From: Tribonema minus | Lineage: Eukaryota; Sar; Xanthophyceae; Tribonematales; Tribonemataceae | Length of the DNA: 64,000 bases | Assembly: GCA_017506865.1 (NCBI GenBank) | Contig: JAFCMP010000083.1 | Span: forward strand, 248,001 to 312,000 | Direction: 5' to 3' | In this document: piece after piece, positions 1,512-64,000 of the stretch | Numbering within the stretch: the first letter of the stretch is position 1 | Layout of the letters: every line of letters begins with the position of its first letter | Notes under the pieces: generated by a model | The model's input: only the letters and a program-made list of their open reading frames with translations | What the model was told of the DNA's origin: nothing | The model's database searches: none | Program-made: the position numbers and the translations under genes

Positions 1512-4500
1512 CTAGGCGCACCGTTCGCGCAAAAACTCCGCGGCGTGCGACAGCGACTCCGCGCCGTACGGCAGCTGGTCGTGGCCGAAGAACGCGTGCA
1601 CCGTGCCCTCGTACACGCGGAGCGTCACCTCCGGCGCCGCCGCCGTGCGCGCCGCCGCCGCGAAGCGCTCGATCTCGTCGACGAGGACCTCCGCGGACGC
1701 GAGCGGGATCAGCGTCGGCGGCAGCGCGCGCAGGCGCCACGCCGGCGCCTCGAGCGGCGACGCGCGCCAGTCGCGGCCCGTGACCGCCACCCTCTCGGGG
1801 TCCGGCTTCAGCCCGCCGAGGTACAGGTTCCAGTAGGCGTTCATGAGGTGGCGCGAGAGCAGGTAGCCGCGGGCGAAGCGCGCGTACGAGCCCGTCGGCT
1901 CTGCGCACGCCTGGTGCGAGAGGACGGGGCTGGCGAGCACTGCCGCGCAGAGAGGGGACGCCGTTGCGCTGCAGGTATGCGGGGGGCATGGGGGGTTCAA
2001 GGGGGGGGGGGGGGGGGGGGGGGGGTCCTGGAGCTGCTCAGGCATGTGGGTTGCCGAGAAGCTTCCATGACGAAGCAGTTGCGTTGCGGCTTGGTGTGAT
2101 CAATTTGCGTCAAAACGGCGTGGTCGGGCCTGTCACAAGGCTTCAACGGCAGCATTGGCCGCTCCTTGAAGTTGTGCGCGTGTCGTGTTAACATAAAGGC
2201 AGCTGGCCTCTACAGTCTATGTGCAGATCGTCGTCAAGGCTAATGCTCAAGAAGCGAGATGATTGCTTATGCATGGTCCACACTGGGAGCGACTGCTGAA
2301 GTGTGCAGCCATTCATCTGCGCTTCAAATAATATGTATGATTCAGCACCACGTGGAGGTTGCAGCCAGCGTGTGGCACGCCATCACCGACGCATCTATGT
2401 ATCCCACACTCAAAAAGTCTAGACCCCATTGCTGACATCATAGATACACATGTAATCTCCAACACCATGCTGATTAGCTGATTGTTGAGAGTTGTGTATT
2501 TTTGCAACGAAAGCCGTAGTCTATAAGACACCCTGTCGCACTCACTCCTGAAGGTTTACTTTGAATTATCAATCATCCGGGCTTCTTCGCGTCCTCGGCG
2601 AGGATCAAACACAAGTGCACAGAGGGACGTGCAGCGCATATAGCCAGGAGCGTCACCTGGACTCGTCGTCGCCCGCCAGCGCCAGGGCCACCGCGGCGGC
2701 CAGGTTGCCCCCTGCAGAGTCCCCTGCCACCGCCACGCGCCGCGGGTCAGCGCCCAGGCCGGCAGCATTGCTCAGCACCCACTGCGCGGCAGCGAGGCTG
2801 TCATCGAAGGGGGTGGGGAAGGGGTGCTCCGGGGACAGTCGGTAGTCGACGCTGACCACGACGCCATTCGTCTCCAGTGCCAGTGCTCGCGTGAGAGGGT
2901 CGTAGGAGGGCACGGAGCCGACGGCCCAGCCGCCGCCTGTGATGGTGCAGGGTAGGTGGCAGGGTAGGTGTCAGTAGTTGGAACTAGGGCTAGGGTGGGG
3001 TTGAGCGTTGACGCACGGAGCGTATGACGCATTTTCGCCTGTGATGCAACAGACGGCATGGCGAGCAGCAGCGGAGCAGAGGCGAGTGGAAGCGCCAACC
3101 CAGCACGTATCGGTCAGAGGCACGCGGTCTCGGCGTGCGATCTGTGAATGTGCAATATGCCGCTGTCATTGCATGTAGGTTCAAAATCTTTGGTACCTGC
3201 TGCGAGACAACAGTGTTCAGTCTACATGAGCAGGTGCCGATTGCGCCTTCCACTGCGCCTGCTGTTTCACAGCAGCACATGCTACTGCTGCTGCACTCCC
3301 ACTGTACATCTCATGAGCCAGCCGAGGTCAGCTGATGAGTCCACCTGTGAGTGAAGCCATCGACAACAGCGCTCTGCTGGTTAAGACGCACCTGCATCCA
3401 AGTCACTGCCGATTGTGCACCAAGATGACTATGTGCATCTCTTGTGCACAAAGAAGACCATGTACATCTCATGTGCAAAGCAGCGCAGGCACTGTGATGC
3501 GTGGTAACCACAGATTCTGCAATGCTTGCATGTGTTGTGCAGAGCGTTGCAGGCACTGTGTTCACGGTGACCACAGGTTCTCCTACGCTTCTCTGAGTGT
3601 GTACAACCAGGTCTGATTGTGCTTGATTGACTCCAGGCAATGCACAACCTCTCACGCTGGGATGAATGACCAAGGCTAGACAAGAGACCAGGTTAATGGG
3701 AGTTGCTGTTGTTCGGCAACTTGAGCTGGCAGTCGCAGACCATCATGGCATTCACTGGCATGCTCACACGGCAGATGCCAGCATAGACATCAGCATCCTA
3801 GCAGGCTTTGACATGCAGCTACCGCCGGGTGATGCTGGGCAGCGCTGCAAGTGGATCTGCAGCTTGCATGCTTGCGTGGTGAGTAGGCTCCTTGAAAGGT
3901 GTGCACATGTTGTCGCCCTGGGCTCAAAGTACTGCAGCTTGCAACAGCTGACACACCAGCTCGTCCAGCCCCTGCGCAGCATGCGCCAGCCGGTCATCTC
4001 ATCTGCCTGTGTTTGTCACTGCTCTACAAGTGCAGAGAAAGTGAGTCAGCTGGCTAGCCGTACAATGCCAGCCACAGTGCCTGCAAACGCTTCGTTTCAT
4101 GCCAGTTTGTTCAGTATTGTAGAGAGGAGGTAGTTCTTGCAGTGCAACCGTGACGGGCTGGCCCAGCTCCAGCACAGCCAAGCTGAAGTGGTACGCGCAC
4201 ACTGACAGCATGTGACACATGTCAACGTCGCCCTAGTATGCTGCCTGAAGTACCCGTGACATACACATATACTTACACCAGGCTTGATTTGCTCAGCGGA
4301 TGCCTTACCGTGCAGGAAAACGGTGACCATGAGCGGCTGGCCCAGCTCCTGTGCAGTCGCATTGGGATGGTACACACGCACTGGCACATTGTACCCATCG
4401 CCACTCGGTACGGTCATGTCGTATATTTTGTCCACGGTGAGGTTGGTGGGCTTTGTGAAGAGAGCCTCCATTCGAGCCCTGACTTTTTTCACGCCGTCGG

Positions 4501-5021
4501 CATCCAGCGATTCAATGTTGTTGAGCCCCGAGCCCCAGGTCGCAGCGGCGGCAACGCTGCACCCGATCCACGCAGGTGTGAGGATGTCCTCGGGCTTGAT
4601 CAGCATGATGAGCGCTGCTGCTGCTGCGATGACCCCTGCATGGCGTAAAACGAGGTGTTGACTAAGATGTGATGGGAGACATGTATGCAGATGACGATTG
4701 TCACCTACATTTCTCTCGGTTTTCGGTGGCTTGACCGCGCCAGCAGCAACTTGATTTGAGTTGACGTGAGAGGCTGGGTGCACAAACAGTCAGGTGATTC
4801 AAAAGTCGCCGTGATCTCATTTTCGTCTGCCCTGCTTACTGCTTGGTTGACGTAATCGCCGGCTTCTGGCGATGGAGGGATTGGAGTATGCAGTGACCAT
4901 GACTCCGGCTGTGCGCAGCAGGTTGTCATCAGACCTTGGCAAACCTTCAGCAATACCCAATTGATCCTGTCATCAAGCACAGGAGCAGACACTGACCTGC
5001 CAGCAGCGCGAGGATAGCCAT
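1512..5021 (-). CDS. alpha/beta hydrolase, HSL (hormone-sensitive lipase) family esterase, 362 aa
   Basis: Carboxylesterase/lipase-like enzyme expected to hydrolyse carboxylic esters. Four phase-compatible exons on the minus strand: 5021-4997, 4635-4309, 2936-2657 and 1968-1512. The 25-nt first exon plus the start of exon 2 make a hydrophobic N-terminus (MAILALLAG, then an Ala/Leu/Ile stretch): a signal anchor or membrane segment. The oxyanion-hole motif HGGGW (residues 117-121) is split by the second intron and restored exactly on splicing. The nucleophile elbow is GDSAGGN, Ser191. The acid position of the usual DPLRDE motif reads EVLVDE, giving Glu304, and the histidine is His335 in VHAFFG. 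Length fits the family. Intron 2 holds a partial copy of the end of exon 2 (about 4133-4205). The acceptor of the last exon is preceded on the transcript by a 25-nt poly-C tract. Substrate cannot be predicted. Membrane-anchored HSL enzymes such as arylacetamide deacetylase are the closest architecture. Confidence 0.88.
2001..2025 (-). repeat. poly-C (transcript sense) polypyrimidine tract of hydrolase intron 3
   Basis: Twenty-five uninterrupted G on the plus strand, C on the transcript strand, about 30 nt upstream of the acceptor at 1969. It is in the right place and orientation to serve as the polypyrimidine tract. Confidence 0.6.
4133..4205 (-). repeat. ghost copy of the end of hydrolase exon 2
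   Basis: Diverged copy of about 70 bp of 4309-4395 (minus-strand frame, LGQP-V-V motif retained) lying in the intron just past the real donor. It is no longer followed by an equivalent open exon. Confidence 0.65.
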
Positions 5022-5518
5022 CTGCGATACAGGTGTGAGCTGCAGGCACCGCACACCACCACAGCACAACACTCTGTCGGGTCCCGGGCAAGTTCCGCGG
5101 TTCCAACGGATCCATGAAACGGTTTCTGCAAACTTCAAAGTCAGGAGGAGGGAGCAGCAAGAATGGCAGTGATGGCGCTGGTTTTCAGCATGGAGCCGAC
5201 GCCGGCGCAGTGACAACAGCGGCAGGATAGCGATGTCGACCATGTCATCGGCTTCTGGCCGGCAATCTTCACAGAGGACGTGCAATGGCGAGGCAGCAGC
5301 ACATAATCGTGCAGCTGCCAAACACATTTCGATAGCAGATCTGGAGCCTCACCTGCATGATGCCTTTTGTGATGTGAGCACAACTAGGATGTCATGGTCA
5401 TTGTCATATACAGCATCGGTGAAAGATCGCATCGCAAGCGCGCACTGAGGTCTATCGATTTGGTGCTTCGCTTTGTTGCCGAGTGATTGTGCATTTTAAC
5501 GCGAACTGATGCATCAAA
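5022..5518. promoter_or_regulatory. divergent intergenic gap between hydrolase and giant NTPase gene
   Basis: About 500 bp separating two outward-facing genes, so it should hold both promoters. No TATA box or other element stands out. It contains a short degenerate copy of hydrolase exon 1 (about 5200-5240, reading MVDIAILPLLSL on the minus strand). If the giant gene has an upstream exon it must lie here or be missing. Confidence 0.4.
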
Positions 5519-6917
5519 ATGCTTGTATTCCTATCGCAGGTACGGCTGTCTTCTCAGGCAGTGTACGTGCAGGAGCATGCATTACACACGGCCTTGAACA
5601 ACTACTGCAACCTGGACTCCATCGATGAGGCGGCGGCGCCTCTGTCTATAGTTGGGCCTACAGGCAGTGGCAAGTCTGCTCTCTTAGCAAACTGGATGGC
5701 GGACTTTCAAGGGCGGCTCGCTGCCAGGGCAGGACGCAGCGGCCAGGAGCCCCCGTTTTTTTTCTACCATGCGGTCGGGTGCTCGCGGCACGGCGTGCAC
5801 GTGGAGCAGCTGCTGTGGCGCTTGCTGGGGGACCTGAAGCGGGCGTTTGACCTCGGGCGTGATGTGAGCCGCGCCCCCAGTAGACAACAGTTCTTGATAT
5901 ATAACTAACGAGACTAGTTTTTGATTGCCGCGTGTAATGCAGACTCGGTGGCATGCGGTACGGCAGAGAAGGTGCGGCAATGCGCGCTGCGGCAGATGAA
6001 CCGTGAACTTCGAGTGCGTGCTGAGCACTTTCTTTCCTGTAATTCTCGAGGAAGTCTGTGCCATGCATGTGCAACGGTGGGAGCGGGCCTGCATGGCACA
6101 GGTTCAGATCTGCCTGCTTGCCGCACATGTAACAATTTGCCTTGGAGCGCCATGAGGACACTGAGTTTTGCGTAAAGACTGGGGTATGCAGCAGCGCACG
6201 CTGGAGCCAGCGCTCTGTGACTGTCGCGCTGATGATGCGTTCCGCAGTGCAAGCTGACTCCTGTGTGGCGGTAGAGATGTCGTCGAACGAGCTTCATGCT
6301 GGATCATTCTGACAAAGACTGTGGGGCCGCCTGGACTGAGCTTGAAGCTTGCGTAGCTAAAGTAGTGTGCATCCTGGCGGCATGGCGTTTCAGCGGTCCC
6401 GACGGCGGAGGCAAGAAGCATACATGCACTACATCGGATCCAATCACAACAGTCCACGCCAGATACACTGTGGCACCCGTGATGTACATCCCGTGTGCCA
6501 GTCTGGCATTTTCAGTTCTCGCCTGCAGAAGTGGCGCTGCCAGCTCGCAAAGCGCCCCAGACAAGACAGCATGAGAGGAAGTGCACGTCGCCGCCTCATC
6601 CGCACGCCAGCGCTCAGAGCGCAGTACGCTCACGCAAAGACCCTTCTCGGCCACTGCAGCATCATTGCTCAACTGCAGCATCGCTCATCCCTCCAGCCGC
6701 CGCTCTCTCACGCACACGCAGGTCCCCGACGAGCCGGAGCGCCTTCCGTGGGACCTTCCGCGGTTCCTGGAACTCGCCGGGCGGCGCGGCGCGAGCATCA
6801 TCATCATCGACGGCCTGCACCGGCTGCGCACCGTCGGCGGCGCCGCGTCCACAGGCGGCCTCCAGTGGCTGCCGCTCGTGACGCCGCCGAATGTGCGCCT
6901 CATCGTTGTGGCGGCGA

Positions 6918-6950
<33 letters not shown>

Positions 6951-7035
6951 GCCACGCGCGCGGCTCGCCCATCGCCGCCGCTGCCGCCGTTGGCGCGACG
7001 GCATCGCCCGCGCAGCCGCCGCCGCTGCCGCCGCC

Positions 7036-7082
<47 letters not shown>

Positions 7083-7446
7083 GCTCGCACGCGGGCGACG
7101 CTGCGAGCTCCGCGCTGCGCCGCAAGGTCATACTGGAGCTGCACCGGCGCCGCTGGCCTGTGCTGGAGCTGCGCGGGCTGTCCGCGGAGCAGCGCACGGA
7201 GGCAGTGCTCAGCTTCCTGCGCCGCAGCAACGGCGGCGGCGGCGGTGGCAGCGACGACCGCCGGAGACCTTTGGGGGGCGGCGGCGCGACATTTTTGACA
7301 GGGGTGGAGGGTCTGGACGATGAGGGGGGGGCACTGGGGGAGGGGGAGGGGGAGGGGGGGGGGGGGGGAGGGGACTGAAGCTGTTCCCGAGCATGGTGGA
7401 GGCAATCGCGGCGTGCGAGGCGTGCAGCAGCGCTCTGTTTCTGCAG
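5519..7446 (+). other. NTPase core of the giant gene (exons 1-2)
   Basis: Exon 1 carries the P-loop; exon 2 starts VPDEPERLPW, followed by the hydrophobic Walker B strand and a beta-strand reading RLIVVA, as in NPHP3/NACHT NTPases. Low-complexity inserts follow: Ala-rich, about 15 Gln (CAG/CAA, near 7039-7080), and Gly/Glu-rich up to a poly-G run. The exon end reads SMVEAIAACEACSSALFLQ, typical of the helical region after a STAND NTPase core, but it is in another frame from the Walker B part (see findings). Confidence 0.75.
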
Positions 7447-10400
7447 GTGCGCGCGGCGACTGTCTTGCATGTAAAGCCGTACTGTTAACTACTAGTTGGA
7501 ATATCAAAGTGTGGTCGCTGGTCGTCACGGCCATGAGGCAGCCGGGTGCGGTGCTCAGCGGACGTGTATGTAGGTATGCCGCTGACTGGATTTCGTCACT
7601 CAACTTACGCCAACCGGTTTTGAGGGGCGAACTGTTTGCATCATGTACACTTACACATCAGCAACCCGTGCCATATCAGCACACATACACACACACATGC
7701 ACATGTGACATATAATCATATAACCCTCAGTATACATCGTACATTTTGGAGGTAGCCAACGTTACCGCAGCATTTACTGGTCTCAGCAGGGGCCAGCATG
7801 CATGGTCCCTGCAGCAGCCCTCGTTTCCATGTACATCAGGTTAGAGCACACCAGCTGTGAACGTTGGCCATGAAATCATGGCAATGCGGGATGCACCAGA
7901 GCCCTAGGTTTTGGCTGCGAAATGGAGGCTTCAATCCTAGACGCGACCCCCCAACAAGTACCGGCTCAAAGTTGGCCCTGGCTCTTAGCACCACGCGTGC
8001 CCTGCATCGTGACTGCCTGCGTCTGCGGTGAAGCTCAGCTCGTGCAAGCGACGCTCCGCTGGCGCAACCGTAGCAGCCACCGCCAGAACAGCGGTCACCG
8101 GTCAGGCAGCCTCAGACCTTGGTACAACCCCCAGTGATGCACTTCTGCTTCCCTCCCGTCGATGAGACCGCGACTGCAGCGCTCGCGCGCGCATGCACAC
8201 AGCAGTGTAGAGTTAGGGTTAGGGTTAGGGTTAGGGTTAGAATTAGGGTTAGGTTTAGGGTTAGGGTTAGGGTTAGGGTTAGGCATGAGCCCTGCAGCCG
8301 CGTCCCGCTTCATGCTCCGCTGAACTCGTGAAACCATCAGCCGTGCAAAGCAGACATGTGTGTGAGCGACCCCTCATGAGTGGCTATATGTGCGCAAAGT
8401 CAGTGCTCGGTGTGCTATCCGTGCCGCCAACGGTGCTGCAGCGTGTGCCGCAGTAAGCTGCCGCAGCAGTGGGATGCGCCTTTTGCCACAGTACTGCGCG
8501 CTGGCCCGGGCACGATGTTACGTGGCGCATACAGCAGCGCTCACGCAGCGGTTATGCACCATCCGCAGGCTCTTCAAAGTTGCGTGTGGACGTGCGCACA
8601 TGCAGATCACTGCCACCAAATGTGAACCAGCGCCTCTCTCTGCTCGCACGCATCAAACCGCTGCCGAGCATTGCTATAGCCAGGCGCCCACCGCCTTCCA
8701 CTGCGCTCGGCGCCTTACCGCCCATTGATACGCGTCCACGCACAGCAACACGCCCATCGCATTGTCCTGCATTGTCAAGACTGAGCCTCGCGCAGGCATC
8801 CCTCTTCTCCAGAGCAGGTAGTCTAATATGTGCTGACCCGCGCCCCGCGCCGCGCACTCCGCCGCCACCGCCGCCGCTGCCGCCGCCGCCGCCGCCGCAG
8901 ACGCTGCTGCGCGCGCTGCGCTGGGCCGCCGCCGCGGGCCACAACCTGCGCGGCCTCCTTGCGCACTGGCTCGCGCTGCGCAGCGTCGCGGACCTCTACC
9001 ACGCCGTGCTGGACGCGCTCGAGCTCGGCGCCGCCGCGCCGGCGGCGGAGGCGCGGCGCGCCGCGGAGCGCGCGGCGGCGGCGGAGGGCGGCGCGGCCGC
9101 GCTGCAGCCGCGGCGCGAGGCGCCGCCCGCGCGCATGGCAGCAACAGTGGCGGCAGCATCAGCGGCGCTGCCGCCGGACGCTCCGGCAGGGGGTGGCAAC
9201 GCAGCAGCGGCAGCGGCGGCGTGGGGCGGCACGAGCGGAGTTGACGGCGGCGGCGGCGGCAGCGGCGGCGGCGGCGGCGATGATGAGAAGGAGGACGCTT
9301 ACGGCAGTGAGGAAGACTTTGAGTCCTATGATGATGAGTTTGAGGATGAGGAGGGGGCGGCGTCGCCACGCTCGAAGCAGCGCTCCAGACCCCCCTCCCC
9401 TACAGCTGCCTCCTCCCCGAGAGGTGCCTCTTCCAGAGGGGCCTCCCCTCGAGCTGCCTCGCCACGGGGTAAGGGTGCCGCTGCGAAGGTGGCTTCACCT
9501 GACAGAGCTGGCGGCGCCGCAGTTGCGGCAAACGCGCAAGCCGCCGTCGCATGTGAGTACAGCCAAGTGCTTTACAGTGCGCATGTCCCTGAAGCGCAGA
9601 TGATTGAAGGCAGTATCCGCAGTGTCTGCAGGCAGTAAACGAGCTACTCTGCAGCCCAATGCGGCTGTGATGTTGGTGCCCTGCCTCAAAAAACACAAGT
9701 GGTAGCTGGTACCATGCGCCGCGGTGTTCATGAAGCCTGAGCAAGGCAGGCTGCAGCATTACATGAGTATTTGAAGAGAGTTACCTGCACCGCAAGAAGA
9801 AGCACCCGAGAAGTATATCTTACACAGTTTGTGACCAGAGCCGCCCATTTACTAGAGGTATGCTTACAATTGTACCAGACCTTTGTATTTGCCTCAAAGG
9901 GGTGGGGTGGGTGTATGTAGACTAGACTGCAGCGAAGCTTCTGCTTCAAACACCTGCTCCGCACAGGACAACTGCAACCTATATGAGCGGTGCAGCTGTA
10001 TTGGCGGCTTGGGTATGCATCACGATTACACCATTCGATTATCACCGCAGCAGACGGCGCATGCCCGTGGAGTGACTGCAAAAGGCTACACATTGTTGCC
10101 CTTGTCTAAGCACCATCCCAATCCGACCTCAATCTTCCCTACACCTTGCCATCACCCGCAAACCGCCTTCCACATCAGCAGCAGCACCATCAACTTCGGG
10201 TTCAATGCACGACGATCCAATGGCCGGGGTCCCTGTATACTTGCGCGGCGGCACGCGCGTTCCCGTGATCGGCAAGGTTCTGGGGCGCTCCCTGGCGCTG
10301 CTTTGGGTGGCACGCCACGGCCTGCGGGAGCAAGAGCTGTGCAGCCTGCTGGCGGGGCTCAAGGTAAGTGCCTCGGGCAGTTTTTCTGCTGGGTTTAGGA

Positions 10401-13400
10401 CGAACTGACACCATATTCCAACAGAATTCTAGTATGATTTCCAGTATAAGCAGCGATGCTTCAGAGTACGCAGTTCTCATGTTGGTCGGCATGTTGGGGT
10501 CTGTTGAGGAGCAGTGCAGCCTCCTGGCAGCACTCGAGGTCAGTGCCTCAGGTTGTTCTGCTGGGTTCAGGCCAAACTGACACTCTACAAAAATGTAAAT
10601 TCAAGTACAAAAAGTGATGCTTCAGAGTATCAACTTGTCATGTTAGGTGGGGTATGTAGGGGCTTGTTGAGGAGCTGTGCAGCCTGCTGGCGGGACTCAA
10701 GGTCAGTTGCTCTGCTGGGTTCAAGATGAACTCATACTATTGTTCAATTGAAATTCTAAGTACTTTTTATTAATTCTCGCTCAGGGCGCGAAAAAGCCCA
10801 GATGATTGGCTTCTACTACTTCTAGTACTTCGAAGTACTTCTGTGATTTCCAGTACAAATAGTGCTTCAGAGTACGCAGTTCTCACGCTGGGTCCGTATG
10901 TTGGGGTCTGTTGAGGAGCTGTGCAGTCTGCTGACAGGACTCAAGGTCAGTGCTTTGGGCACTGATTCTGCTGGATTCAAGCAGTACTGACAGTTTTATT
11001 TTGATTGAAGTTCAACTGTTTCAATAGACTCCAGTCTTGATTGTATGCTTCAGAATGCACACTACGCACGTTGGACATCTGACATTTTCATTTGATCGGG
11101 ATTGCAGTACGAATAGTGACATTTCAGTGCACATGTACACACTTCGCATGTTGACAATGCAGGGGCTTGATGATAAGGAGCCCCCCAGCTTGCTGGCTAG
11201 ACTCAACAGCAGTGCTCCTAGGGTCTCGTGTCAGTGCTAAGTGGTTGCCCGCAGCTCATTGACAAGTGTCAGTCAGCTCCCAGCGGCTGCCCGAGTCAGC
11301 TGATGAAACACACACCTGAAGGTACTGCAATAATTGCTCTGTAGCGCTCCTTTCATTCATCGTGTACATCTGAGACATAAGCACACGTGCACTCCGTCTA
11401 TGCCCCCATGCAGGCGGTGGAGGCGACCGCAGCGGAGGCCGGCAGCAAGGAGCGCGAGCCATTTTAAGTTTACCATGACATCAGACTGTTACCGCTTTGC
11501 ATCGCAATTGCCTGAGACGCAGCAAGACGGCTCTGCCCTATGCACATCACGTGATATTTGTCAGTATGACACATTGTGCGCTCATCCCGTGTCGCCATGT
11601 CAGGCGGTGGAGGCGACCGCAGCGGAGGCCGGCAGCAAGGAGCGCGAGCTCACAGAGCTGCTCGTCAACGAGCTGCTGAAGCACCAAGGTGAGGCGGCGT
11701 TGCGCATTGCAGCTGAGGCATGCCTCGACCGTGAGCATGCTCAACACCTGAACTGCCTGACGCCAGATGCAGCAGTAGTGCTCTTGGACGTTGATCTGCC
11801 GCCGCCTTGAGACCTGCAAGCGGGTTTGAGCGGGAAGCACTGCCATGCGGTAATGAAGTGGCAGGTGTGAACCTGCACTTGTTGACTTGCATACACCTTC
11901 GAGAGTCTGCAAGCATGCTTTCACTCCACCCCCCGCAACTCTGCCACTTGAAGTTCGACACCCCGCCTGCGTGACCCCCTCAGGACGGCTGGTGGACCAG
12001 ATCCACGCCATGGACAAGGACCGCAACGGCTGCATCGACGTGGATGAGCTGCGCACGATGGTTGCCTCGCTGGAGCTCGGGCTGAGCGATGATGAGGTAA
12101 GACAAGTAGGGCTGCGGCTAGGGTTTGGGGGGCGAAGCGAGGGCAGGTGCTGGGGCGTAGCGAACCCCTCGCTCGTGCTCAGCAAAGACAAGTTAAGAAA
12201 TTAAGTAGGGCTTAGGGGTGAGTTTAAAGTCAGGAATAGGGGGTTGTTGGGCGTGGGCTCAGGGCTAGGGGTTGTTGCATGGGTGAGCGCTGGGCTCCAG
12301 GCACATCACGAATGCGGCGCATGTTTGGCATTTCAGCACCTTTGTATTCACCACCAGCTCCAGCATGATGCGTGCACACGCACTCCAGAGCGCATGTGTT
12401 GTGAGCCCTGCCCAGAACCTGTCCACACCCACCGGAGGGCTAGCAGACCCCCTTGACTGGAGTTCTGCGCCTAACCCTAAACCTAACCCTAACCCTAACC
12501 CTAACCCTAACTCTAGTCATGACGGCAGTGTTTCGGTTCCTTGCTGGTCATGGCGCCACTGCGTTGATCATGCCGCCAGGGTTCATGACGTCCTTGCGTC
12601 TTTGACCGCTGTCTCGTACTCGGCGCAGATGGACTTCCTGCTCAAGAGCCTCGACACCGACGGCTCCGGCACCATGAGCTTTGAGCAGCTGCTCGCGCGC
12701 TTCCAGGTCGCCGCCAGAGCGCTGCGGCACCGCGAGTCGCCCACCACGGGCAAGGTGCGCACACGTCTGGATCGTTCCTGATGCTCATCAGTCGTGTGAG
12801 TCGTCACATGGCAGGACTGTTGCGGGGGCAATCGAGTACCTCTCAGGCGTTGAGACCCCCATCTGAGTGTTTGGCATGGCTGCTGCCGCACGGCATAGTG
12901 AAGGAGCCCTGGCGTGCCCTGACCGAACTTTGATCCCGCTGCAGCATCATGGAGCCTTGCGGAACGCTGATTACACCAGCTTTGACGTCCTCACGACTCG
13001 TCCCCTCGCCCTCTCCCCCCCTCCCATCCCCCCCAGCAGGCACCGCGAAACTCAATGGGGGGGGGCTTTCCACAGACGGCCACCGCGCTGCTGGCGGGCG
13101 TCGAGAAGGAGACCAGCCCGTGGCTCTACTACGCGCTCAGCGACAAGGAGAAGCGCGAGCTGTTTGACGTGCTGCGCATGCTCGGCGTCATGTTCGTGCC
13201 CCTGGGTGAGTCTTAGGAGACTCAGAGTCGCCACGTCGTGCGAACGAGTCAGAGTTGGAGTGACGTGCTGTGTGTGTCCGGGGGCGGCGTGTTCATGCCG
13301 CCGAGTGAATGAGTGAGTCGCACACACGCTCCAGATTTGGAGTCGCCACATTGTGTTGTATGGGTAGAGTAGACTCAGAGTTGCCGCAGCGTGCGACGAG

Positions 13401-19400: not shown

Positions 19401-21228
19401 TCATGGTGGATGTATGAGTGTTGCTGAGGCAGTGCTCGGCGATGATGGTGGACGTGGATGTGCGGGGGTGGGGAGGTGGACCCTCGTCCGGCACATGTGC
19501 GCATGCACCCAGCGGAATCTGCTCTGTCTGGCCGAGCCCTGCCTAACCTATGCCTGCGTTATTGCTTGCTGCGTAGTTTTTGACTCGTTCGCCCAGGCTC
19601 GTATATGGTCTTCTTTTCGGGTTCAGGTCAGCAGAAGGTGACGCCCTTCACAGCAGCGCCGTCATTGCAAGTCGCCGAGATGCGTTGCCTGTGCAGACAG
19701 TCGCGCGGTGGCGGTGCAGATGATGACAGTTGCGGCGACGTACGCCCGTCTAGCCCTAGTCCTGACCTGGCCAGCGGGTGCCTAAGCGCCACTGCATGCA
19801 CGCAAGCCCCCCCCGCATTCGCCAAGTGCCAAGTGGCGCCGCTGCAACCACAAAACCCAAACCCTGCTCCTGAACCTAAACCGACCACACAAACAAACAA
19901 ATGCACGGAGGGCCTGCACTCAATGCGGTCATCCATTGCCCCCCCGCATCGATTGAATCGCAGACGCTGGCGGTCGCCAAGTGCGCGTGCGCGGTGAGCC
20001 AGCTGCAGTCAGTGCTCAACAGCCTGCATGCGGAGCGTCGGCGCAAGAAGTTGCAAGTCCGGCACCTCCGGCAAGCGGCAAGCCGGTGAGCGCCGTGTCC
20101 GGAGAGCGAGTACGATGTACTTTGCTCAATAGGAGCACGCGTGTTGTACGCTGTTTTATACGGCGTGGTGCAGAACAGAGTATCAGCAGGGAGCCAGTGA
20201 ACGCCGTGTCCCGTGAAGCAGTATGGTGTACTTTGCTCAATAGGAGCACTCGTCACACGGTGCTGGATGCTGTTGCATCTGACATGGTGCAGAAGAGGGT
20301 GTGCGCCCCTCAGGTGTCAGCAAATAAAGTACCCTGCTTACACTTGCTTGACAGGCAGTGACCCTATGGAGCTCTGCAAGATGTGAAGCTGTTGCGCTTG
20401 TGCAGTGCATGAGCTCACAGCGCACCTGCACCCTCAGTTGCAAGCGAGACAGTCAGACAGTCAGAGACTCAGAGTGTTGTGAATTGCCTGCTGATGGCGC
20501 CACGTTGAGTGCCCTCTGATGAACTCAGAGCTGCATGCTAGAAGTTGGATGTGTTGGCCGCTGGCTCCAAGAAGTAGTCGACTGCAATTACGGCGCCGAA
20601 AGAAGAAGCATGCACATCAGCACAAAATTCAAAGAAGAAGATGTTCGGTGAACACGTTGGCATGCAACGCAAGCAGTACTGACACTGCTGCACGTGGTGA
20701 CAGGTATGCCAGCGCCGACTCCTGTACAGTGGGCTTTTTTTTTTCACGCCCTAAGCGAGCATGTAAAGCGTACACTTACACACTGCAGATGCCAGCTGAA
20801 CCTGCAGAAGCCCTACCAAACAAATAGCGAATCTCTTGTCCCTTTGCAACCATGCCTACACGGCAGAGTTCAGCACATCTGAGCGAACTGTCGCTACGCC
20901 GCCTTGACCCTGCACAAACTCCCCGGACCGTAGCGACTCCCTTGTCCACAAGAGTCACCTGTCGCCCCCACTGTGCCCATTGCCCTGTACTGGCGCCATC
21001 AGCCACCCCAGCGCTCAGCCTGTCTCTGCTCACATGGCACGCCCATGGATGCCTGTCCAAACCCATCACAGCTCTGTTGATTGTTGTGGAGGCGTGCTGC
21101 ACTTTTTGCAGGTTGTGTGCTCAAAAAAGGCAACTACTCATTGCAGTGTTGACAACAGTTGCGCTGCTCCGCAGAGAGTCAGCGCGCGGCCCTCGCACTC
21201 AAAACTTGAAGTTATGCCCCCCTGTGAC

Positions 21229-21263
<35 letters not shown>

Positions 21264-55330: not shown

Positions 55331-58300
55331 TCAATGCAACTGCCACGCAAATCGGCCAATGGGGCGTTGAACACGTGCCTTGGTGCAGTCGTCGGGCAGC
55401 CGCTGGAGCCAGTCGCTGACGACCTTGCGGGCGTAGCCGCCGAACGCCGCGCCGGACGCCTTGGCGCCGCCAGCGTCGCTGCTGCCCAGCAGGCCCATCG
55501 CTTGCAACCTGCAGACACACGGCATGCCAGTTGAGTAGAGTCCTTCGCACATATTTCACCACCTTAATGAGCTGCGTGTGAAGAGAACAAGGCGTTGCCG
55601 AATGCGCTGCGCCACGCTGCGCTGGGTAACACGTGCGGCACTTGCCCCCATGTTGCGATGCCTATCCCCCTCCGACCCCTCCCCCCCCCCCTAAACGCCA
55701 GTGCTCAGCAGGCGAGGCATCGGATGGCACACATGCGCAGCATCGACGGCTACTGCAGCAGCGCCACTACAACCACAACGAGCGAGCAAGTCGCAGCATA
55801 TGAACAGCGCTTCAACAATCAATAACACCGCCGTGCAGCCCCCACAATGATTTACGGAAAAAGCCAACATTTTTTTAATACATGTGCTGCTCCAGTACCA
55901 ACTTTGTACCATCTGAGGGCCGGAAATTAATGGTTCGTTTTTCATTACTTCTTCAAAAAAAGTAAAACAAAATTATTGTACTGTTCTAAAATCACCTAGG
56001 TACCGTCGCGGCGTTAGTGCCCCCAGCCAGCTGCACGTGGTGCCGGCCTGCGCCGAACGGCAGCGCTCCGCTCTTGAGAACTTTCTCCGCGAAGGCAACG
56101 CTCGCCAGCGCGGTCCCCTTGCCAATGTCGCCGCTCATGGGGCGCCCGTCTGTCTGCCATATGCGCAGGCCGACGCCGCCCTGGTGGTGCAACCCACATC
56201 GGCAACGTGGTATCGAATGCAGGAATTAGCGGGGTGCTGTTACCTTGTGTTGGTGGGGTGGTTGCCACGGGCAGAGTGCGCATCGGCAACGCGGTGCCGC
56301 ACGCAGGTGGTTGATGAGCATCAGCAGAGTGCGATTATTTTTCATTGACTCAGATCGGACGGTCGTTGCTGTAGCACGTGCACGCCGCCATGCAAAGTGT
56401 CAATGGCATGTGCAGTTGGTATATTTTTGCGTGCTACATGTCATGTTTCGAGAGGTTTTGGCAAGACACACTTGCAGAAAGGTGTCAAGGACTAAATGTG
56501 CACGGCTGTCCCTGGAGAAACGTCTTTTGAATGCTGCCACAAGAAAAGGCAATCACCACGGATACAATAGCTGAGCACCTGAGGAACTCTAAAGGCCCCA
56601 TTTTCATGGGTAAAAGGCACTGCCAGGTGCACAGCTCCTGCCACCCACTGTCCTGTTGTTCAATCCGCACGTGGCTCACTTCAGATCCTGGTGGGCTCTA
56701 TTTGACACCCGATGGGCAGTGTCGACAACGGTGCTAAGGTTATGATTTCGCTCAGCAACTACTGCGCGCGCGCGGTCTGCTGGGATGCGCTGCGCGTCTC
56801 CTCTGCCGGGCACTTCAAGCATAAATAACGGATGCGCGCACGCACCACGATACCTCAGAATACTACGCACAGCGCGTCTAGCAATGCGCTGCTGCTGCTG
56901 CTGACGCAGCATACACTCGTCCGCATTCTCACATTTTCTTATTTGCGTTTGCGTGCAGCTGCGGCGTTCTCCCTCTTACCTGCAGAACGTCCGCCCACTG
57001 CTGCAGGTACTCTGGGGTCTCCTCTCCCATGTCGGGGAAGCTGATCTGCAGAGGCATTGAAGTTGAAGTTGCGCCAGCGCGGCGGTGGCGTCAGGATAGT
57101 ATTTGCTAGTCTACAGCTCATCATGATGCGTTCAAGAACAACCTGCAAGTCATTGCGGCCATGCACATGTCGGCGTGGAGGCAGACAAGCAGCGAAGAAA
57201 TGCAGTTTGAGCCCATTGGGATGCCAGCAGCATAGCGGCTACGATGTAAAACGTGCAGCGGCGCGCCCGTGGGGTAGATGGTGCAAGAGCTGCCGCATGG
57301 TCGGCAATGCAGAGGAGCGCAGCGCCGTCTATTGGCGCTTGGCCAGCGAGGTACATATTTGTATACAGATTTGTACGCCATCTGATGCGCTGGCCAAGAG
57401 GGCAGTCGCTGCACTTCTTGCAGGCCTGCCGAGGGAGCGCACTCGCATCGCAGACAGATGCGCCTTTGGCGCTGCGTTGCTGATGCTTGACGCTGCATGA
57501 CATGAGTCACAACTAGGAATGCACGCCGTGCGAGCAGAGGGCAGGCTCTTCAGGATCTTCGGCAAAGGGAGTCGCAGAAAAAATGTACACGGACGTCAAC
57601 ATGAAGTGGCGACGCACCGCTGCCGCGTAACACACACGCGTCACATGCGGCACACGCAGAGCGCAGGTGCTTGGAGAAGCATCACCCGCAAATATATCTT
57701 GAGGGAATAAACATGCAAAGACTTCAACAACTTGAAGCGGCGACGCACCGATACCGCACGCAGCGTGGTGTCCGCCTCCGGCCCAATGTGAGCCCAGAGA
57801 TCGCGGAAGGCCTGCACGTCGCCCTTGGTGTGCACCTGAATGCAACACGCACGTTAACAGGGGGTCAGTCCAGGCAGGATTAATGCAGCCCGTATGCAAG
57901 GCCATGCAGGATGCCACAAATCAAGGGGGGGGGGGGAGGGGGGGGGCAGCTGGTATTGAGAAGCCATTTCATCCTCAGCATAGAAATTCATTCTCAGCTT
58001 AGGCATGTTGGCGAGGAGTTGGGGTGGGTGGGGGTCAATGACATCAAACACATGATTATGATACTGTAGCACGCTGGCATAATGTTGCGCGGGGTCGTGG
58101 CGATGCTCAGAAGCCCTTCTTTGTGTGACCACGTGATCGGCAACTGATGGCCAGTCACAGTGCGCCAATTGATGTCAGTAGAGACCTAACCCTAACCCTA
58201 ACCCTAACCCTAACCCTACTGCCAGGCTGCAGTTGGCGTGTGCCAGTTCAGCTTCAGCGCGAGTGAAACAGTCATCGAATCGAGATTGTTTGCACGCGAT

Positions 58301-61300
58301 AAAGTATGCAGAAAGTTTTGGTCGGTTTCAAGGGTACACTGCCTGGAGCAGGTGACTGGCACACCAGACCTGCGCATTGGAGGACAGTACATGATACAGT
58401 CACCTTCAACTTTAATCGAGCAGGGACCTACGTTAGTATACAAGAGTATTTGCCGGACTGCAGCTTCCGTGGAAACGCACCCAATCGGCCATTAGTCGCC
58501 CTACACTTACACTATGGTAACCATCAGCTTACGGCCATCTCAAACTTCAACATTTAGCCAGGTGCACCTGTTTCGTGTGGACACAGCAGAACCACCACGA
58601 GGATATGCACAACTGCGCAGCGATGCGCGTGCTGCGTCACGCAGCAGCGCACCGCAGGTTTACTTTACCAGGTGACGCACCTCATTGGCCTCCACCATGC
58701 GAGCAGCAGCGACATGTCAGCTGGGACACGCAGGTACGTCACTAGTAATATTTCAACAGATGATGCACCTGGAAGGTTTCCCTGCGCCATGCAGCGGCGA
58801 CGCGTCAGCGGGGCTACGCAGGCACGTCACCACTACTACTTCAACAGGTGACACTACTTCACCGAGTGACGCACCTCACTGGCCTCCACCATGTCAAGCA
58901 GTGTTAGCACGTCAGTGGGGCTACACAAGTAAATCAGAAGTGATATTTCAAAAGGTGATTATACTTCACCAGGTGACGCACCTCGATGGCCTCCACCATA
59001 TCAAGCAGCGGCAGCACGTCAGCGGGGGTACGTAGGTATGTCACCGCGTCGATGATGCCCGGAGGGCACACGGGGATGCAGCGGCCGCAGCCGTAGCACC
59101 TGCGCACACGCGCAAGCGGCGGGCGCACGCGTATCAATGCAGCTGCATCAGACGCGTTGATTTTATGAAGTGCGCATCCTGCGCACTGCGTCATAAACAC
59201 GGCAAGCTCGGTGTGCCTGGCGACAAGTGCAGTTGAAAGCGCCCCCCCCGAACGCCCAACCTACGGTTCACAGGAATGCGACAACGGTCAGATCCACGCC
59301 TAGTGTCGTAACGCTGGTTGAACACCATCGTGTCTGTGCAACAAACCGGATGCTAAGGGCGACATGCGCACACTCGAGTTGGCGGCATGCTCACCAACTG
59401 AGCTCCTCTGCACAAGCGCTAGTCATGTCAGCTCGCGCTGGACGGCCATGGCAGTTGCGGCTGTGACGATGGTCGCATGCACGGCATGCATCATTCAATC
59501 CTCACTGGTCACCACTGTTTCAATCTAGCATTTGAAGTCCATCATCAAAGGCGCCATGCAAACCCTATAAGCCATGGCATGTGCATCTGCTGAGTTCGCC
59601 CGCCCATCGCACGGCAACTCACGCCCCCAATTACGACAGTTACGGCAGTTACGGCGGTTGTCACCTGTCCTCCACCACGCCGCCCAGCGGGTGCGCGCTG
59701 AGGTGCGCCGCCAGCGCGGAGCTGCGCAGGCCGCTGTCTGCGGAGCGCTGCTGCAGAGGATTCACACAGAGACATCGCAGCTGAGTTTCAGTCCAAATCC
59801 ACAGCGGAGATGATCACGGGAGCTGAAGGCAGGAAGTTTAGTGGGAAGATTGAGTTGAATCCGTACTTCAAGTATGGGAGTGTGCATCGGGCCCCGTCTC
59901 GCATTGCTGCGGATACTCAATTATGGGAGTCCTCCAACTGGATTCCAGCGCGCGCGTGAGACTTCAACTTCAATGCAGCACTGCACCGCCCCCGTTCATG
60001 CTATGTCATGATCATCGACATGGCGACTTTGTGTTGAAGTGCACCGCCGGAAAGCCACACACCATGTGCGTTCCGAGGCTGAAGTCAACATCCACATTTG
60101 TGAACCCCAGCACCCACGGCGTGGCAATGCCCCTCAGCCTCCTCTGCTGCCTTCGCATAAATAATGCGCACTGGCGAAGGCACCACGTTTCCGACCAGGG
60201 ATTGCAAGCAGTTAAAGTTTGCACTTGATGTTTACAGTGAAGTTCACAGTATCTGCCCACCTACCTCATCCGGGAAGGCGATGGCCTGCGCGGGGCACAC
60301 ACGCACACGGGCACGGGCAGTCTGGCGGGCAGCTGGCACGCGTCAGAGGCTTCCTAGCGCCTGTCCTCAAGCACTACCAACATTCATGAGCCCCAGCATC
60401 CACGGCGTGGCGATGCCTCGCAGCCTCCTCTGCTGCTCTGCTATGCATGGTGTGCACTGGTGAGGGCACCGCGTCTCCAACTGGTGACTGACTGCACTTG
60501 TTACACACACTTAATGTTTGCACCTGAAGTTTACAATTGAAGCTCACAATGATGTGTGCACTGCAAGTTAAGTTTACACCTGAAGTTTATGACAACCTTA
60601 CACACCTACCCCATGTACCTCATCCAGGAGGGCGATGGCCTGCGCGGGGCACACCCTCTCGCACGGGCGCGGGCAGTCCGGGCAAGCACTTGAAATTGAA
60701 CGTGAAGTTAACGGCAACGATATACGTGCCCCCCACGTTCCTCATCGGGGAAGGCGATGGCCTGCGTGCGGCACACCCTCTCGCATGGGCGCCGGCAGTC
60801 CGGCAAGCTTCTGAGGTTTACAATTGCATTTAAATCTTGAGAAGTTTACAGCAAAGGCGCACCGTACCTACCCACGTACCTCATCCGGGAAGGCAATGGC
60901 CTGCGCGGGGCACACCCTCTCGCAAGGGCGCGGGCAGTCCGCCGGGCAGCGGCGCGCGTCGAAGGCGGCCTTGCGGAAGTGCGGGTCGCGCGCGTCGTCG
61001 TTGACGGAGATCATGGTCCACGGCCGCCGCAGCGACGCGCCGCAGTCCTTGGCGATGGCGAGCGCCGTGTCGATGCCCTGACGCACGCAGCGGCGGATGG
61101 GTGCGGTGCGGCACCGAAGGAAGTGTTTAGTAATGTAAGGATCACAACGGAGCGGCGGCGCGTGCAGCTGTTGTCGAAGGTGACGGTCGCGTGCGGCGTT
61201 TACAGGAAGTGTTTACAGTACCGTAACGTGATGATCGTAATGGGGCGGCGGCGCTGTGCGAAGCGGTTGCTCAAGGTGTCGATGCCTCGGCGGACGCGGT

Positions 61301-62612
61301 CGCGGCGCCACACGAAGTGGGGTTCGCCGCATGAAGTGGTTACAGTATGTACTGTAAGGGTGATAATCGTAGTGGTGTGCAGCGGTGCGGCAAGCGGGCT
61401 GCCGGACGCGGCGACGGATAGGTGCGGCACCGCGTGAAGTGTTTGATCACAGTACTGTAATGTGATGATCGTAATGGGGCGGCGGCGCTGTGTGAAGCGG
61501 TCGCTGAAGGTGACGGATGGGTGCGGCTCCGCGTGGGGTGGTGGTTGGTGAGCACTGGGTTACTGCCACATGGCGTGCGAAGTGGACGCTGCCTGAAGGG
61601 GTGGCGGCGTGTGAAGTGCGGAACACAGTTTGGACACGTGTGCTCACCTCCTGCGCGGCGGCGACGGCGGCGCGCTCCGCACTGCGCCGCATCGCCATCC
61701 ACACCAAACGCAGTACACCGCGTATGCACTTTGGCAACAAGTGTAAATATACATACATACCGGTATGCGCTCACCTCCTGCGCCGCGGCGACGACGGCGC
61801 GCTCCACGGTGCATACGCTGCACAGCGATCCACATCAGCAACAGTAGACCGAGTATGCACTTTAACAAAAAGTGATACTTCAACTACTTGAAGTATACAT
61901 ACCGGTGCGCGCTCACCTGCTACGCCGCGGCTAGGACGGCGCGCTCCGCGCAGTATACCAGGTATGCACGCATTTCAAAATACTCCGAAGTAGTGCACTT
62001 CTTCTTGAAGTACATATACACGCTCACCTCGTGAGCCACGGCAACGACTGTGTGCTCCGTACGTTATACCTGGTACGCACTGCAGCAGCATATGTATATA
62101 CTTCCAAAGCACGTGTATTATGCGCTCACCTCCTGGGCCGCGGTGACGACGGCGTGCTCCGCGGCGCAGTCCACGCAGTCCGCGCCGGCGAGCGTGTAGA
62201 CGAGGGCGAGGTTGCACTTCAGCACAAAGTGTATACTTCAAGTACCTGAAGTATGCATGCTCACCTCCTGCGCGGCGGCACTTCAGCACAAAGTGTATAC
62301 TTCAAGTACTTGAAGTATGCATGCTCACCTCCTGCGCGGCGGCACTTCAGCACAAAGTGTATACTTCAAGTACTTGAAGTATGCATGCTCACCTCCTGCG
62401 CGGCGGCGACGACGGCGCGCTCCGCGGCGCAGTCCACGCAGTCCGCGCCCGCGAGCGTGTAGACGAGGGCGAGGTTGCGCACGTCGCTCGCGTCCTCGAA
62501 CGACGCGCCGCAGATGAGCTTGAAGAACTCGCCGCGCGCCAGGGACTGGTCCGGCGGCTGGCGCCGGATCTCAGGTGGCGGCAGGTGCGGCCGCACCGCA
62601 TCGTACACGGAT
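55331..62612 (-). CDS. ldpA: LdpA-like two-cluster iron-sulphur protein (379 aa visible, 5' exon missing)
   Basis: Minus-strand exons, phase-checked: 62612-62393, 61077-60880, 59750-59665, 59099-58982, 57835-57749, 57045-56980, 56180-55996 and 55508-55331. Order of landmarks: FFKLICGASFEDASDVRNLA and TLAGADCVD near the visible start; RRPWTMISVNDD; first Cys cluster CPADCPRPCERVCP; second, ferredoxin-type, CYGCGRCIPVCP; IWQTDGRPMSGDIGKG; VQLAGGTN; GGYARKVVSDWL. These match cyanobacterial LdpA, which carries Fe-S clusters and passes redox/light state to the circadian clock. In an alga a plastid stroma location is inferred. The first visible exon starts in phase 2, so an upstream exon, likely with the transit peptide, is missing; it lies beyond 62613 or off the window. 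The 55508-55331 exon may instead end at a GC-type donor after DDCTK. Ghost arrays flank at least five exon edges. Confidence 0.92.
58185..58218 (-). repeat. interstitial telomere repeats (CCCTAA)n
   Basis: About five to six units in the LdpA intron between the ferredoxin-type exon and the next; TTAGGG is on the transcript strand. Confidence 0.9.
58665..58935 (-). repeat. three ghost copies of the end of the LdpA ferredoxin-type exon
   Basis: Real end and donor at 58972-59035 (LLDMVEAIE, then GTGCGT). Copies near 58672-58735, 58766-58830 and 58862-58920 keep the GACGCACCT-A-TGG-CTCCACCAT core (plus strand) and the CAGGTACGTCAC-like tail. Period about 100 bp. Confidence 0.88.
60250..60810 (-). 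repeat. three ghost copies of the end of the LdpA first-Cys-cluster exon
   Basis: Real end at 60872-60950. Copies at about 60255-60335, 60607-60690 and 60728-60805 preserve CTCATCC-GG-AGGCGATGGCCT, the CGGGGCACAC run and GGGCGCGGGCAGTC, encoding parts of PCERVCPAQAIAFPDE with its donor. Confidence 0.9.
61085..61580 (-). repeat. ~120-bp degenerate tandem repeats before the LdpA exon at 61077
   Basis: About four to five units sharing GCGGATGGGTGCGG, a GAAGTGTTTA-AGTA-TGTAA-GTGATGATCGTAATGG-type segment and GGCGGCGC. They border the acceptor of the 61077 exon and copy its CGATGCC start loosely. Confidence 0.75.
61640..62350 (-). repeat. seven ghost copies of the end of the first visible LdpA exon
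   Basis: The real end (VDCAAERAVVAAAQE, then GTGAGC; 62391-62470) is copied near 61640-61700, 61768-61815, 61905-61950, 62025-62060, 62125-62220, 62262-62280 and 62325-62345. The last two belong to an exact-looking 64-bp tandem (starts 62215, 62279, 62343) that also carries the palindromic ACTTCAAGTACTTGAAGT. Confidence 0.92.
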
Positions 62613-64000
62613 CTGCGCGTGCAGTAGCATTTATGTATATATCTGTATACTTCAGAAGTACATGAACAAAAAAGTGGTAATTGAATGGTCTGAGTTGAAG
62701 TGAATCGCATTGCATACAATTGCGGGCGGCGGCAGATGCGGCCGTACTACACTGATCTGCAAGAGCAACGGCATGTACCTTTGAGTATATAGGTGTTGCT
62801 GCATCAGTGTAGCATCTTATTCCATAGAGTCTCAGCCGGCCTCCTGATGATGTGGAATGTCAGGCGGCTTCAGCTGCGGCCGCACAGCGTCGTACTGACG
62901 TGCGCAAGCACCGGCACTCATATTTCATGAGCATTGAACCACTTCGGAGATGGCTGCATCAATGGCATTCAATTTGGTACCTGGCACCAAAGCCACCTGT
63001 ACACACGGTGGCAACGCAGTCAGCTGCTATTGTTTCCAAACAAATGACTTCAGCTTCTCCTCGAAGCATGAGATTCGTCACCAGTTGATAGCAATCATGC
63101 GCAGCGCAGGGGGACCGTTGCGCACCCCTGTTCAGCCCCAGGTGACTGGTGGTCATACAACTGCGAGCAGGCCACGCGTGATCATCGGATTCACCACGCA
63201 CGCAGCCGGTGTTTCCGCAACACGTACAGGCGAAAGTACACTACAGCGCCAAGGCAGCTGTCACGCAGTGTTAAGTGTTACCTTCAGAAGTGTGCTGCCT
63301 CTCGGTGCGGCGAGGAGTTGGCATGTGAAGCGCCTGCAGCTGCTGCCTCTGCAGGCCACGCGCCAGCTCCTGATGCCGACATCAGCAGCAGCGCTATCCT
63401 CTACAGAAGTTCCTGTGCTGTTCACCGAGTTGATCTACATGTATACTTGTTGTTGAAAGTGCTGTTGCCTTCGAGCCTCGCGGAGGTGCTCGACACCCGG
63501 CGTGTGTCAACATCAATTGCCCACTGCAGCTCTTGTGCGGATGTGTGCGCGATTACTGCAAGCAAGTCCACTGTGTGTCAGCAGCTAAAATGAGTTGGGG
63601 ACGAAACTGGCAGTTTGTTGACATCGACCGCCAAGGATTGCCATTCCAAATGAATGGCGACAGAATAGTGAATCAGCGTTTTGAGGAGCTGTCAGCGTGT
63701 TTTCTGTCACTGTAGTCAAATAAGTGACACCGAACATCCTGACAGCGGCCCTAGGCCTTGTATAGACACTGTGACACTGGCAGCAAAATTATGAGCAACT
63801 CAGGCAAAGTCGCTGCTGCAAGCTCGATGTTAACGTGGGAACTCGGATCGTTTCTCACTACTGACAATGAACTGCAGGCAGTATCACACACCTTGGCTCT
63901 GCAATGTTTGCACCACTCAGCACTCTGGCGTACTTCAGCTGGCTCCCGCTGCAGCCATGTCCCAGAAACCCATCCACATGTCCTCCGTGCCCAATTAGCA
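62613..64000. other. upstream region of LdpA, first exon not identified
   Basis: Holds two ghost copies of the acceptor region of the first visible exon (about 62722-62765 and 62860-62905, plus-strand GCGGC-TCAG-TGCGGCCGCAC-type). No exon ending in the required phase could be recognised. A short plus-strand frame at 63590-63715 (MSWGRNWQFVDIDRQG) has no known family and is not called. Confidence 0.45.

Follow-up and report, generated by a model that had tools for sequence, protein, structure and literature searches.

What leaves partial copies of exon ends inside the introns next to them? The question is raised by a 64,000-nucleotide stretch of the Tribonema minus genome (hereafter the window; contig JAFCMP010000083.1, positions 248,001–312,000), where an initial annotation had described tandem 'ghost' copies of exon edges, holding both exon and intron sequence, in the introns of every multi-exon gene. 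The ghosts are real and occur well beyond the window, at about a quarter of introns. We read them as ordinary local duplications that left neutral scars where one splice junction was crossed, and give this reading a probability of roughly three in four.

Exon-edge copies and their geometry

The T. minus genome comprises 158 Mb in 554 contigs, and the window sits on a contig of 313,934 bp (C83). It was analysed together with 14 other 20-kb pieces, chosen by contig number and fixed coordinates irrespective of content, giving 15 segments and 344 kb. Exons were modelled with a hidden Markov gene finder, which trained itself on the window and 12 other 20-kb pieces and was then run over all 15 segments; 245 of the 379 exons called were of high confidence (at least 60 bp long, with a score of at least 6). 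The gene finder matched six of the eight annotated exons of an amino-acid transporter exactly and most exons of an LdpA-like gene closely. It fuses adjacent genes, which leaves the edge tests unaffected, and two or more of its high-confidence LdpA exons (60063–60146 and 62130–62216) are absent from the annotated protein, so some counts include false exons.

Copies of exon edges were sought in the first 13 segments with 224 high-confidence exons (E ≤ 1e-3, low-complexity filter), yielding 141 noncoding local copies for 58 of them. Acceptor-spanning copies lie upstream in 45 cases and downstream in three, and donor-spanning copies lie downstream in 53 and upstream in eight; the remainder comprise whole exons (4), near-edge copies (21) and core copies (7). 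Controls, run without the exonic-target filter, returned 24 matches for the reverse complement, 13 for the reversed sequence and nine for another gene's flanks. Only 0–2 of these per class and side fell in the junction-spanning classes; the control background lies in the near-edge and core classes and reaches seven per class and side, so the seven core copies are background. The order originally described, on both strands, is therefore upheld.

In Smith–Waterman comparisons of exon edges with their own introns, 43 of the 171 introns of at least 120 bp carried a copy of either edge (17 of 58 in the window, 26 of 113 elsewhere), compared with 0.5% of mismatched introns, which bears out in the sampled introns the excess of exon-edge matches that had been predicted. 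A stricter E-value test found a junction-spanning copy in 15 of the 63 introns in the window and in 24 of 143 elsewhere. Altogether, junction-crossing units holding exon and intron amount to 83 unique ghosts of 55 exon edges in 11 of the 15 segments. The window is thus representative of a widespread feature, and the original observation, although real, was overstated: its 'every multi-exon gene' fails against these fractions, the alpha/beta-hydrolase gene (1522–5358) has no copies at E ≤ 1e-3, and the glycosyltransferase gene (33112–34103) is essentially one long exon. The range of one to nine copies fits the maximum of eight found at one edge (exon 50039–50237). The unit size was originally given as about 60–250 bp; the smallest spacings in 46 intron clusters are 93–359 bp, with one of 971 bp.

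That most-copied edge in the window is an acceptor of the amino-acid transporter, whose protein, joined from six minus-strand exons in one open frame, matches the annotated protein P0001 of T. minus at 100% identity. No copied edge lies within P0001 itself. The gene finder miscalled part of the 46656–46709 ghost as an exon (46653–46691), which is absent from P0001.

50039–50237, minus strand: third annotated exon of the amino-acid transporter (PF01490), from its open frame and identity to P0001
50392–51853, minus strand, in the intron 50238–52265: eight upstream acceptor-edge copies of exon 50039–50237 (72–90% identity, E 6e-6 to 1e-16)
50392–50494, 50842–50909, 50984–51056 and 51165–51259, minus strand: copies 1–4 of this edge
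51292–51351, 51476–51533, 51605–51634 and 51799–51853, minus strand: copies 5–8 of this edge
46656–46709, minus strand: acceptor-edge copy of exon 46129–46358 (87%, E 2e-12)
49661–49700, minus strand: acceptor-edge copy of exon 49434–49588, exon part only (78% over 40 bp, E 3e-4)
48177–48305, minus strand: weak acceptor-edge copy of exon 47653–47899 (64%, E 1e-4)

Several donor edges are copied in the gene for the LdpA-like Fe-S protein, annotated as P0109; the internal exons of the annotated protein have no copied edges.

Up to 62612, minus strand: LdpA-like Fe-S protein gene (PF12617, PF25160; Pfam)
62393–62612, minus strand: first strongly supported LdpA exon (Pfam), to which annotated P0109 maps at 62557–62393
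61641–62343, minus strand: six downstream donor-edge copies of exon 62393–62612 (72–100% identity)
62269–62343, 62206–62279, 61988–62059, 61857–61950, 61719–61813 and 61641–61680, minus strand: these six copies singly
62725–62777 and 62857–62921, minus strand: two upstream acceptor-edge copies of exon 62393–62612 (70–72%, E 4e-5 and 3e-7)
60704–60802, 60582–60680 and 60208–60359, minus strand: three downstream donor-edge copies of LdpA exon 60880–61077 (77–83%, E 8e-22 to 1e-28); the annotated donor is at 60872, 8 bp beyond the predicted one
58815–58936, 58748–58831 and 58661–58742, minus strand: three downstream donor-edge copies of LdpA exon 58982–59099 (74–82%, E 2e-12 to 3e-22)

The two donor copies nearest exon 62393–62612 are part of a 64-bp unit that is present three times at 99% identity (62214–62407) and spans the LdpA donor; this repeat suggests recent or ongoing duplication. 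Across the sample, divergence from the real edge ranges from 0 to about 37% and is mostly 15–30%. Duplication introduced by the assembly, the artefact that might have explained the copies, was ruled out on this divergence, with most copies 70–90% identical and of graded age.

Local duplication as the probable process

Short direct repeats are plentiful in the sample, many of them crossing a single splice junction, and local pairs are overwhelmingly direct. There are 231 direct and four inverted local pairs, or 117 and four without the satellite-bearing segments L007 and L017, which were excluded from some totals; positions 1–3744 of L007 form a satellite-like array spaced at about 236 bp, and L017 holds 96 local direct pairs. 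Direct local repeats cover 13.0% of the sample and inverted ones 0.44%. The proposal that introns grow by repeated local duplication gains support from the direct repeats, which make up 13.9% of intron bases, and from the greater length of the introns that they touch (median 697 bp, n = 76) than of clean introns (456 bp, n = 116), a contrast to be read with the caveat that long introns also present a larger target.

The distribution of these repeats was measured in 80-bp windows, each scored for a local direct copy crossing its centre (E ≤ 1e-4). Such copies occur in 16.7% of junction windows within the 64-kb stretch and 11.5% elsewhere, in 18.8% and 10.0% of intron-interior windows, and in 2.3% and 0.8% of exon-core windows, respectively. 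Coverage varies little along the intron side (0.12–0.18 before acceptors, 0.09–0.13 after donors) and drops into the exon, which is what tandem duplication combined with purging of coding changes predicts.

Tandem duplications of about 100–300 bp would, on this reading, arise locally. A unit inside one intron or over one junction would leave the message intact if the outermost junction (the first donor or the last acceptor) were the one spliced, a choice that may be made by exon definition, and the inner exon-edge copy would be left behind within the intron. Duplications of coding sequence alone would alter the protein and be eliminated. The geometry described above, with donor copies downstream and acceptor copies upstream, is expected because only intron-side copies leave the message unchanged. 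A ghost would then drift as neutral intron, its splice signals eroding with no selection to retain or destroy them, and repeated rounds would lengthen introns and build arrays of as many as eight or so ghosts.

Weighing the alternatives

Four sets of observations weigh against ordinary local duplication with neutral scars: the spacing of the pairs, the frequency with which arrays cross junctions, the preservation of some ghosts, and an annotated exon that runs into one. The ratio of aligned length to spacing has a median of 0.44 over 117 pairs, so that contiguity is visible in a minority only; in many pairs the similar stretch is far shorter than the spacing, and a clean tandem origin is not visible there.

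The second set concerns the junctions. Once 15 arrays with a whole exon, 21 outside gene contexts and three that were too long had been left out, 19 of the 27 classifiable arrays crossed a junction, compared with 9.4 ± 2.4 expected by sliding and with 38–49% in a forward simulation from clean introns (56% using all introns); the figures were 16 of 21 versus 7.4 ± 2.1 with stricter exons, and 9 of 10 versus 3.5 ± 1.5 for arrays of at least 85% identity. Duplication or retention could accordingly be biased towards junctions, as it would be by breaks linked to transcription or splicing, for instance, with introns growing mainly from their ends. Detection that uses introns only, with exons masked, also leaves an excess, 21 of 46 clusters ending within 12 bp of a junction versus 13.9 ± 3.0, but only seven of the 21 continue clearly into the exon (at least 65% ungapped identity over the next 20 exonic bases), and several may not cross. 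Windows at junctions and inside introns carry copies at similar rates, in keeping with the near-flat profile, and the same simulation puts crossing by chance alone at 38–56% of the duplications detected. The samples are small and clustered, with four of the nine arrays of the strict high-identity set in one gene (in segment L021), and the slower decay of exon parts skews detection; the excess at 85% identity or more is partly an artefact of this kind, and exon-masked detection lowers it. A bias of this sort is improbable as the explanation of the ghosts. The junction is perhaps slightly special, the excess being only suggestive given such small, clustered samples and the residual bias. It is doubtful that duplications arise or persist preferentially across junctions, with introns growing outward from their own splice sites; if they do, the resulting arrays of near-perfect decoys, which the spliceosome must ignore, would be a natural experiment on site choice.

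The state of the ghosts bears on a different proposal, advanced in the initial annotation, that they are decoy or alternative splice sites kept by selection, regulating splicing or forming alternative exons. Among the best copies of 57 edges, identity is 0.857 in the exon part and 0.791 in the intron part, as expected if only the ghost side drifts freely. Mismatches by codon position in the 83 unique ghosts (0.139, 0.116 and 0.217, compared with 0.171 in introns) fit a freely drifting ghost set against a constrained exon. Near acceptors, a real pyrimidine has become a purine in the ghost 56 times and the reverse holds 30 times, as decay would have it. Many ghosts do keep their sites, AG in 35 of 45 and GT in 30 of 41, but with edge-truncated copies included the neutral expectation from each ghost's own exonic identity is 31.8 and 30.8 (65 of 86 versus 62.6 overall). 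Splice scores have fallen about as simulated under neutrality for donors (3.34 versus 3.43) and slightly further for acceptors (2.46 versus 3.06). AG, GT or GC is retained in 75 of the 83 ghosts, and its use would add a stop or a frameshift in 72 of these 75.

The third set of contrary observations includes the retention of AG or GT in 72 of 83 junction-aligned ghosts versus about 63 expected from codon positions 1 and 2; this excess is gone once edge-truncated copies are included. A few ghosts, a point in favour of selection too, have a strikingly intact exon part, matching at 46 of 46 positions (intron part 19 of 27) or 62 of 64 (intron part 46 of 64). These lie at window 11387–11459 and at L027:17874–18005, and chance, fast evolution on the acceptor side and gene conversion are candidate explanations.

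The fourth observation comes from LdpA. The annotated first exon of P0109 (62804–62748) passes through the ghost acceptor of the 62725–62777 copy, terminates at a GT that lies some 10 bp into the copied exon sequence and continues, in the annotation, at 62557 in the real exon. This is the one hint that a ghost may really be used. More probably, to judge from sequence comparison, the exon is misannotated, because homologues (for example P0112 and P0113) are matched better by the start of the real exon, from its acceptor at 62612 to 62557, than by the annotated N-terminus. With retention and score loss at neutral levels, the sites that are kept mostly damaging if used, and P0001 and the internal exons of P0109 free of copies, selection for decoy or alternative sites is very unlikely.

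The same annotation had suggested that duplication may make introns as well as enlarge them, so that ghosts would mark introns created by tandem duplication of exonic AGGT segments. That route is established elsewhere, as described in PMC3443670 and PMC4974935. An intron born in this way would match its own acceptor region at its donor, in register, yet in-register identity between the two averages 0.280, compared with 0.267 for mismatched pairs. It reaches 0.5 in only two of 312 introns, both 15-bp CAG-repeat artefacts, and the next-highest value (0.48) is a call inside an LdpA ghost array. The copied units, moreover, already hold pre-existing intron ends. Intron birth is highly improbable as the source of the ghosts, and the suggestion finds no support in these comparisons.

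Mobile or dispersed elements, similar to introners and carrying exon-edge-like sequence into introns, would be another source of repeated intron sequence, and two short stretches in ghosted introns (10757–10815 and 60392–60444) are indeed found genome-wide. Neither, however, falls within a copy of an annotated or strongly predicted exon edge, and ghosts match the adjacent exon rather than the introns of other genes (0.5% in the control). The transporter array, queried with 50812–51634 against the 158-Mb genome, matches only its own locus, with two local matches among the best candidates scored; a second array gave one weak 104-bp match on another contig. None of the four genome queries made resembles an introner, these two having no off-contig match or a single weak one and the other two only short dispersed stretches outside exon-edge copies. 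Such an origin is barely credible. Of the dispersed stretches themselves, 10757–10815 is a repeat of about 59 bp with more than 50 genome matches (a lower bound), at up to 98% identity and in both orientations; a search of the 344 kb sampled gave ten matches, counting its own. It is possibly one end of a mobile element. The other, in an LdpA intron, is 45–53 bp long and has at least 39 further matches on other contigs at 78–91%. Part of it recurs at 60106–60150, in the predicted exon 60063–60146 that is absent from the annotated protein, and an apparent ghost pair, 60063–60146 and 60366–60490, was rejected as false, being explained by this dispersed 53-bp stretch and involving an 'exon' that P0109 lacks.

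Other window features and known systems

The remaining genes of the window identified with Pfam, and the copies at other exons, are as follows.

1522–5358, minus strand: alpha/beta hydrolase (Pfam)
5696–13929, plus strand: EF-hand-bearing protein (Pfam)
33112–34103, minus strand: RXYLT1-like glycosyltransferase (Pfam)
about 39–43 kb, minus strand: gene with ankyrin repeats (Pfam)
11387–11459, plus strand: acceptor-edge copy of exon 11604–11688 (E 8e-19; exon part 46/46, intron part 19/27)
14878–15007, plus strand: acceptor-edge copy of exon 15091–15328 (copies of both edges, 77–96% identity)
15466–15514 and 15615–15669, plus strand: donor-edge copies of exon 15091–15328 (same set, 77–96%)
20185–20253, plus strand: donor-edge copy of exon 19964–20085, 12 bp of exon and the rest intron (81%, E 4e-14)
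28285–28407, plus strand: contiguous tandem donor-edge copy of exon 28082–28256, 93 bp of exon and 30 bp of intron in a tandem repeat of period 121 (89%, E 2e-36)
29182–29263, plus strand: copy of the end of exon 28934–29110, 81 bp of exon and 4 bp of intron (82%, E 2e-17)
32007–32131, minus strand: acceptor-edge copy of predicted exon 31673–31851 (74%, E 8e-19)
38844–38961, minus strand: acceptor-edge copy of exon 38438–38572 (66%, E 3e-10)
40090–40595, minus strand: four upstream acceptor-edge copies of ankyrin-gene exon 39748–39909 (63–86%)
41648–41729, minus strand: acceptor-edge copy of ankyrin exon 41236–41468 (82%, E 3e-16)
42347–42437, minus strand: donor-edge copy of ankyrin exon 42573–42844 (79%, E 1e-19)
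42930–43086, minus strand: two upstream acceptor-edge copies of ankyrin exon 42573–42844 (72%, E 2e-9 each)

Interstitial telomere-like (TTAGGG) arrays form a separate class of repeat. The 344 kb contain 22 of them, 16 in introns, six in other noncoding sequence and none in exons; on the sense strand nine read CCCTAA and seven TTAGGG, and two in segment L025 sit 7–11 bp from an acceptor. Those in the window are at 8213–8284, 12469–12510, 17960–17977, 28379–28445, 44571–44594, 49206–49241 and 58184–58219.

In the ghosts, the growth of introns by small duplications tolerated by coding sequence can be seen clearly. They also provide dozens of natural pairs of real and decoy splice sites within one genome, their ancestry known and their decoys graded in age, on which one could test whether site strength, position or exon definition decides between sites; a method for transforming T. 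minus has been reported (PMC7139823). For annotation they carry a warning: our gene finder took ghost edges for exons, and the annotated first exon of P0109 may be another such case. No earlier description of genome-wide exon-edge ghosts was found among the open-access papers searched, as judged by titles and the beginnings of abstracts, nor was a paper on the T. minus genome itself.

That introns can be gained by tandem duplication is established (PMC3443670), and the duplication of AGGT segments in particular is attributed to Rogers 1989, Hellsten 2011 and Gao and Lynch 2009 in PMC3443670 and PMC4974935. With that route T. minus shares local, probably tandem duplication near splice-site-like sequence and splicing that would preserve the coding sequence; it differs in that its units already contain a splice junction and intron, with no match in register. 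The nearest parallel is the potato RdRp gene, in which a tandem duplication crossed an existing intron/exon boundary (PMC4974935). The T. minus ghosts appear to be the same kind of mutation, repeated through the genome and mostly without consequence. In potato, by that account, a single event produced a copy that was spliced, giving a new intron and inserted exonic sequence, whereas T. minus has many diverged copies, absent from annotated proteins save one doubtful first exon. Introners (PMC9860276) likewise recur in many introns of a single genome, but they are one element copied across genes, whereas each T. minus copy matches the edge of its own exon.

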